From: Centroberyx gerrardi
Lineage: Eukaryota > Chordata > Actinopteri > Beryciformes > Berycidae
NCBI RefSeq assembly: GCF_048128805.1
Contig: NC_135997.1
Span: 8,745,116 to 8,809,115, forward strand
Length of the DNA: 64,000 bases
Direction of reading: 5' to 3'
Shown here: one piece after another, positions 14,701 through 17,700 of the stretch
How positions within the stretch are numbered: position 1 is the first letter of the stretch
How the letters are laid out: each line of letters starts with the position of its first letter
Notes under the pieces: model-generated
The model's database searches: none
Told to the model about the DNA's origin: nothing
What the model saw: the letters and a program-made list of their open reading frames with translations, nothing else
Program-made: the position numbers and the translations under genes

Positions 14701-17700
14701 TTAAATGACTGATTTAGGTAAGCCCTTTTGCTTGCAGTTTTAGTAATTAACTTGCAGCTTGCGTTAGCTTTGCTTGGCTAACATGCTGGGGCTGCCAGAC
14801 GTCCTTGGTTCAAATGCTCGGTGGTCAACTTTTCAAATGAATTGTCCAGGTCTGATATGAAAATATCCGACCAGAACACTATTTGGCAGCAGTTTCTCTT
14901 ATTGTTCGTCTACTTAATTTACCTCTAGCAGGCTGTCGGCAGGTTATCTAGTTAATGTGCAAAATCAAGCTTGGATAGAGAGAACTCTACTGTAGCCTTG
15001 TTAGACCTAAAATCAGCAGGTGACAACCATTCCTGTTTCTTCAACACTTGCCAAAGTGGCAAATAGTGCTGATGTAGGGGGAAGAAACAAAGAAATAAAA
15101 ATATACCAAACAAAATCTGAAATATGTACAGAATGAAATAAGTTGTAAAAAAAAACATCAATATATGGTATGTATAACCTATGAGAGGAAAAATGCGGAT
15201 ATGAAAAAGAAAGCAAATGTCTGTCTGCTGCAATAAAAATAAAGTAATAAAATTACTTTGAGAGAGTCACCAATATCATCAGAAAATGAACCGCAACTGA
15301 CCTGTAAAAATGAGTAAATTGAGAGCGCGAGACTAGAGGCTGTTTGTTTTTTATTCACCTACAGACGCGCTCAGAAAGGGAGACGGTAAAGCTACAGTAT
15401 ATGTCTGTGTTGTTGATCCCGCCAACTCTGTCTGTAATGTGGTGTGTAATAGGATAATGAGCAGTGTGGAACATGATCGACTTCACGCCACTGAAACTAC
15501 TGACACAGATCTACAGTCTGCCTCAGTGTCCTGCTCTGATCACCTCCAGCTCACATTTTCACTTTTTTTTAAGTGGGTTATTGATCTTGTATTGTGGTTG
15601 TGCACACCTACAGAAACGTGGGTATAGACAGACGAACCTATGGAGGCTCCACTTCATGGTTGATAGGGGCATCCTGATGGTCCAGGATGCCCCTATCAAC
15701 CATGAAGTGGAGCCTCCATAGGTTCTTTTTAGGCCCTGTGAGAGTATGCTGGCGTGTCTGAGTGTATGTGAGTGAGTGAGCGAGTGAGAGTGGGAGTGTG
15801 TGGAAGAGAGAGAGAGAGAGAGAAGAGTGACAGGGGCAGCTGTGAGGGTGGTGAGCTGGGCTGCGTATCAAGTGGCACAGGAGGCGCAGAGCGAGGCTCG
15901 GCTGGGCGCTGGCCTGAGGGTCACCAAGAAGACGGCCAGGGAGCGTTACAGGAGATTTCTGACTGGGCTGGTTATGTGTCTGCAGCGTGCACAGAATCTG
16001 CAGAGTCAGGTGAAGCTAAAACTAAGATCAAAGATGTAGAGCATGGCAGAAGAGTGTAACCAAGCGCTGAATACCGGTAAAATTTGTCTTTGGTCACCCA
16101 CCACACTGGCCAGTAACGTTCTGAAACGATAACATCTGAATGCTTGCGGTATATATAGAAATGCACACGTTCGTTGGTCTTTGCCTGTCCTCTAACTTTG
16201 TCCCTGCTGATCACCGTAATCTCTCTCTGACCGTGAGCCAATCAAATCCAAGCAAAACAATGGTTCTGTGTCAAACAGGCTCCTGATTGGCTGCCCGTTA
16301 GGGCTGATTTATACTTTGTTTTTGGGTTTGCGATGTTCAGGGCGTGGATGTCAGGCAACTCATGGTTCTTGGGGTCAAAGTGGAGTGTGCGTTCTGTTAC
16401 CATAGCGACAAATTGCTTTTGTAGTTCCATTTGCACACGTTGTAGTCTACCTTTTTCAGATTTCTGTGAGTTATAGTTGAATATACGGCCTATAGCTCTA
16501 GTTTTTGCAGGCTATATAGTAAAATGGTGGTGACAAACTGGGAGCCCTTTTCTACCTTGCTTCTCCTTTCTTAAACGTACCTCCACAGAACAATTACACA
16601 CTTCTGGATAGTGCTGGCCAGCCAATCATTGCACCGTGATCTCTGCGACACCGCCTGCACTGTTACAAGATTTTGGAGGTGCACAACTCTGCACATAGTC
16701 CCTGTGATGATCCTACACACGCAGTCACACAGGCCACAACTGCATCATATCAACATTGATGCTGCACATTCCGCAAAAAGCATAAATTAAGCTTTAAGCT
16801 GGCTCTACACAAAGTGGTAGCATCTGAACTTCTGTTTCTCCACTGCCTGAATGGTAAAATGGTAAAACAAAAGATCCATTGACTACGTGAGTCAGCAAGT
16901 TTTAAATTAAAACTCCAAATCTACTCTTGTGTCTGTATTTAATGTTTCACATAGTACCCGATTCTGTACACAAAATCGAATACAGGTACGGTGACATATT
17001 GCTGTGAAAAATGCTTAAAAATTATTTTGGCTGTTAAAAAGTATTCTAGGTAAATGTTTTTAGTTTACCAGCTGTTGGCAGGTGAGACACAATTTTGTAC
17101 ACTGGGTGTGAGAGAAGTAAGAAAAAAACAGAAAGAAACAATAGGTGGTAAAATGACAGTAGGTCATGAGACAGAGGAATGAGGCAAAGAAAGGGGAGAA
17201 AGTATTCAAGACCAGAACTTTGCAAAGATGTTAGTTCTCCATAGCATTGGCTCGGAGGTCTATCGTGGTCATATTTACACATATTTAAGTACAGCCAGCA
17301 AACTGGACTCAGCGCTGTGTTGTCATAGTACTTGTACATCCGTATATCAGGAGCATTATTCAGGACGGGTTAGAGCGAGAGTCAAATGTGCTGATACGCT
17401 CTTCTACTTGCCATATCATCATCATCATCATCATCAAGTTGCCCTGGCCATCAGGGACGGACAAATACAAGCTGACGGTCTGTCATAGTCAGTGTATGTT
17501 GCACCAAAAGCCAATTCTCCCAGACAGACCTGTCTCCCTGGCAGCTAGTCTAGGAACTAAAAACTTTAATTTAACACTTATTTGATATGACTCAATATTT
17601 CTCTGCTTTCAATTACTTTGCCTCATTTAAATTTAAGCGGAAAGAGAGATAGAATTGGATTAAATCAGCTGGAGTCGACTCTTTATTTTAATTGAGCGAC

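Follow-up and report, generated by a model that had tools for sequence, protein, structure and literature searches.

A perfect inverted repeat in homer2 intron 2

How did two perfectly matching arms come to lie next to each other in an intron of homer2, and do they form a working element? We addressed this question in a 64-kb window of Centroberyx gerrardi, the window being the whole stretch of 64,000 nucleotides that was analysed. The hairpin is most likely the trace of a recent DNA-copying slip and not a working element. It is an ordinary kind of feature and gives no sign of a novel type of system. The hairpin and the parts of homer2 that surround it are as follows.

15634-15676, plus strand: left arm, 43 nt, exact reverse complement of 15683-15725
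15677-15682, plus strand: loop ATGGTC, 6 nt, unpaired in the RNA and DNA folds
15683-15725, plus strand: right arm, 43 nt, exact reverse complement of 15634-15676, with a weak lean towards being the newer copy
15726-15730, plus strand: TTTTT, abutting the 3' end of the right arm (by direct reading), hence AAAAA ahead of the hairpin in the homer2 sense
12519-19926, minus strand: homer2 intron 2, which contains the hairpin, with AG/GT sites at the exon borders
19927-20082, minus strand: homer2 exon 2, coding part, first part of EVH1/WH1 (Homer 2B 1i7a, E 3.9e-29)
12387-12518, minus strand: homer2 exon 3, second part of EVH1/WH1 (Pfam WH1, E 1e-12 over 12390-12518)
11524-11616, minus strand: homer2 exon 4, AG before and GT after

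The exon borders, with AG before and GT after, agree with the location in homer2 intron 2 that an earlier note on this DNA had claimed. The exon numbering used here presumably matches that of Homer genes in general, in which the first exon is tiny. The acceptor AG of exon 2 was found one base further out with a split-codon base between, and the exon probably starts at 20083. The hairpin lies about 3.1 kb from exon 3 and about 4.2 kb from exon 2. Pfam families were matched by three of the six translated stretches tested. Elsewhere in the window, a minus-strand reading frame at 44455-44979 carries a BTB domain (Pfam), and another at 60251-60574, also on the minus strand, carries a clathrin adaptor small chain (Pfam).

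All 43 positions of the two arms were paired, and an independent script returned the same pair, as had been claimed for a perfect 43-bp inverted repeat with a 6-nt loop. The earlier note was also right about the sharp ends and about the complexity of the sequence. Pairing halts on both sides (left flank ...AGACAGAC, right flank TTTTTAGG...), and the arms, with a GC content of 53%, are not a microsatellite; 0 tandem arrays were called over 15634-15725, and a tandem repeat was rejected on this ground. GC rises across the hairpin, from 32% (15001-15300) through 44% to 56% (15726-16025). Two 26-nt stretches that flank the hairpin, 14636-14661 and 15942-15967, are 85% alike, possibly by chance or as an old repeat.

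The rest of the 64-kb window contained two perfect inverted repeats with arms of at least 14 bp and a spacer of at most 60, both with arms of 14 bp. The chance expectation of a 43-bp perfect pair was about 1e-19 in closed form, and when the window was simulated 200 times with a first-order Markov model, the longest arm arising by chance was 9-16 bp. Given these values, the 14-bp next longest arms and the simulated maximum of 16 bp, perfect arms of 43 bp are far beyond chance. At wider spacing, the perfect pairs of 20-23 bp were GT/CA microsatellite; the longer-armed inverted repeats at a spacing of at most 500 were imperfect (75-89%) and mostly of the same GT/CA type (among the 25 of 27 pairs listed, in both cases). 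Opposed GT-rich and CA-rich microsatellites at 28025-28233, 71-133 nt apart, give rise to many long inverted-repeat pairs. For the human genome, the longest perfect arm at a spacer limit of 8 is put at 140 bp in the excerpted text of one survey (PMC13155455).

A probable template switch and the age of the arms

A perfect inverted repeat with so short a spacer can come from a template switch, from a young palindromic transposon or from an artefact. We consider it rather probable that the hairpin is the product of one short-range template switch, that is, fold-back copying. During copying of the intron, the growing strand would take either its own nascent strand or the opposite one as template, copy 43 nt backwards and then rejoin the original template near the point of departure. 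One such event would insert the exact reverse complement of the adjacent 43-nt stretch and leave a 6-nt loop. From a template switch one would expect a perfect copy close by, with sharp ends and a short spacer but without a duplication, so it needs nothing extra here: the arms are perfect, the spacer is short, the ends are sharp, no target-site duplication abuts the arms, and no second copy of the hairpin or of an arm was found elsewhere in the 64-kb window. The absence of an abutting direct repeat and of a second copy in the window is what a one-off local event predicts. The fold-back or template-switch duplication proposed earlier, with one arm templated, thus fits the observations and stands as their best explanation, rather than as a proven event.

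Low-stringency BLAST within the window gave a best E of 2.1 for the 92-mer and of 0.78 for the left arm. Four words of the arm, of 39, 19, 19 and 20 nt, had no exact match in IMG/VR, and neither had two of 23 nt in GTDB genome contigs. A blastn search (word size 11) with the 92 bp gave 0 matches in E. coli genomes, plasmids or phages. The IMG/VR, GTDB, E. coli, plasmid and phage collections are not meant for fish DNA, and records of the own genome may be left out; these empty searches are therefore neutral between the readings. Six words of 17 letters from the arms had no match in the literature searched.

The arms gave no third direct copy. The longest word common to either arm and either 200-nt flank was 6-7 nt, a length also seen in most of the 300 random pairs compared. 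Since there is no third direct copy, one switch and one return suffice. Small inverted triplications, as described for yeast and cancer in the excerpt of PMC13334657, also involve a short inverted fragment and are attributed to replication error, but they have a duplicate-inverted-duplicate structure of about 148/160/148 bp. The hairpin here has no such third copy in its 200-nt flanks, and an inverted triplication was rejected.

According to the excerpt of a report on great apes, the majority rearrangement patterns of template switches lead to single inverted repeats (PMC7954356). The present hairpin resembles the four-point events described there, each of which leaves one perfect inverted repeat next to its source, and its tract falls within their maximum of 128 nt. 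The copied tract has a median of 12 nt, a median absolute deviation of 4.5 and a maximum of 128 nt (PMC7954356, same excerpt), so 43 nt is unusually long yet within range. In the excerpt of PMC8794818, the primate microRNA hairpin MIR633 is inferred to have arisen by template switching; in the rRNA data of that study, the largest pattern resembling a template switch, which measured up to 59 bp, did not pass quality control.

We investigated which arm is the original. Insertion of the right arm alone would give a junction homology of 2 nt, as the last two bases of the right arm, TC, are also the last two of the loop. The other cuts gave 0 nt (left arm alone, or right arm with loop) or 1 nt (left arm with loop, or the whole 92 bp). 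These values lean weakly towards the left arm as original and the right arm as newer. As 18% of 20,000 random 43-mers reached a junction homology of at least 2 nt, the match is a lean and not a result. We infer a recent template switch, with the right arm as the likelier new copy.

The earlier description of the arms as either recent or kept identical is a fair one. With 0 differences in 43 pairs, the neutral age cap is about 3.5-17 Myr: at 95%, it is about 17, 10, 7 and 3.5 Myr for rates of 2e-9, 3.5e-9, 5e-9 and 1e-8 per site per year, assuming these substitution rates and an arm pair that is neutral and unconverted. According to the excerpt of PMC8794818, a template switch can also restore base pairing within a stem that is already present, so the identity of the arms is not strict proof of youth.

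Transposon and artefact readings

The main rival, which we regard as unlikely, is that the hairpin represents a recently inserted palindromic MITE (miniature inverted-repeat transposon) of MADE1-like size. In the earlier note, an ordinary transposon had appeared only among the outcomes that would refute its claim; the MADE1-like dimensions give a palindromic MITE the rank of main rival. A self-complementary TA lies at offset 5 of the arms. If this TA, internal to the arms, were the target duplication, the element would measure 78 bp and consist of a 6-bp middle between terminal inverted repeats of 36 bp each, in the context GAACC-TA...TA-GGTTC. Human MADE1, as given in the excerpt of PMC1784062, has 80 bp, two 37-bp repeats and a 6-bp middle. 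The anatomy is thus nearly identical, with arms of 36-43 bp here and 37 bp in MADE1, around 6 bp in each, but, unlike MADE1-type MITEs, the hairpin lacks a clear target-site duplication, and a second copy of it was not found within the window. The missing second copy weighs little, because for a family of 1,000 copies and a genome size taken as 1 Gb, only about 0.06 further copies would be expected in 64 kb; one copy here is compatible with a family of even thousands. Arms this identical imply a young insertion, in which the target duplication should be intact, and no direct repeat abuts the arm ends. The longest word common to the 15-nt flanks was TAG, 6 and 4 bases from the arms. The TA version also requires that five outer bases on each side be complementary by coincidence, at about 1 in 1,000, unless palindromic sites are favoured.

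Other mobile elements were rejected. Helitron terminal hairpins are recognised by criteria that include a CTRR-type terminus; the stem here is too long for one, and no such terminus was seen by eye in either flank. A tRNA-derived element was rejected since no tRNA was found in the window (ARAGORN, bacterial code). Separately, 37044-37538 contains an imperfect inverted repeat with arms of 107 nt at 85%, 281 nt apart, overlapped by a second pair of 72 nt at 85%. Its appearance suggests an old DNA transposon of fold-back or MITE type.

The second arm may instead have been added by an assembly error or a fold-back library molecule, a reading to which we give little credence. Such molecules are documented: in the excerpt of PMC12870357, fold-back reads make up about 0.55-0.6% of nanopore genomic reads and often recur at one place, and an artefact would yield arms as perfectly identical as those observed. 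The same excerpt cites higher fold-back rates in tumour data and describes virtually no fold-back reads in PacBio HiFi, from three PacBio samples in all. In the fold-back reads that it describes, however, the second segment maps onto the first on the opposite strand (PMC12870357), whereas here pairing ends at 43 nt. Because unrelated sequence resumes on both sides, a library fold-back fits this geometry poorly; by our reading, it would need a second switch. The library or assembly artefact that had been offered as an alternative is therefore retained as a rival, with its fold-back version weakened by the geometry.

A possible functional RNA hairpin

We also considered whether the hairpin is under selection, with the homer2 intron containing a young gene for a microRNA or a small hairpin RNA whose stem is kept perfect by its function. 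We regard this as very improbable. The 92-nt fold was -90.6 kcal/mol as RNA on either strand, and -55.2 as DNA with z -18.9; the RNA value would apply to homer2 pre-mRNA and to a putative antisense transcript alike. The predicted RNA stem is very stable (z -12.4 for 15580-15780) and the hairpin is intronic, both of which fit a small-RNA gene. So does a permissive Rfam search over 351 bases, in which microRNA models ranked highest, namely mir-1226 (E 0.0054 and 0.0083) and mir-578 (E 0.0072). The scores of these matches were 26-27 bits, at most 26.7, against cut-offs of 95-98, and no Rfam family reached its gathering score in the window. We read the permissive matches as reflecting stem shape only, as expected of any perfect stem. 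To our knowledge, a 43-bp stem without bulges is not a typical microRNA precursor.

The TTTTT that follows the stem on the plus strand also suits a small-hairpin gene. It occupies the position of a would-be Pol III terminator for a plus-strand hairpin transcript; no promoter was seen by eye. The usual distance of a Pol III TATA is about 30 nt. The only TATA-like stretch seen by eye upstream, 15623-15628, lies about 10 nt from the arm, and a Pol III small-hairpin gene was rejected.

A variant of this reading joins it to template switching, and we hold it to be slightly less probable still. It proposes a newborn small-RNA gene, in which a template switch made the hairpin in homer2, bulge-making mutations have yet to come and the RNA already enters Dicer. 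In the excerpt of PMC8794818, microRNA loci are inferred to be born as reverse-complement repeats that gain bulges later. Loci of this type, for example MIR633 (PMC8794818), resemble the present hairpin in that one event can create a perfect stem. They differ from it in that the hairpin has no bulges and that any mature small RNA from it is hypothetical.

The double-stranded intronic RNA suggested in the earlier note is a prediction from folding. The RNA of the homer2 intron should form a 43-bp double-stranded hairpin when transcribed, as judged from the predicted fold. Putative Dicer processing or ADAR editing of this RNA would probably be incidental. Under the preferred reading, a recent local template switch, the hairpin would, if confirmed as a single recent event, be a clean and long example of the birth of a template-switch hairpin in an intron. 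If confirmed, it would also help to date template-switch events and to find out whether newly arisen double-stranded RNAs of introns are processed.
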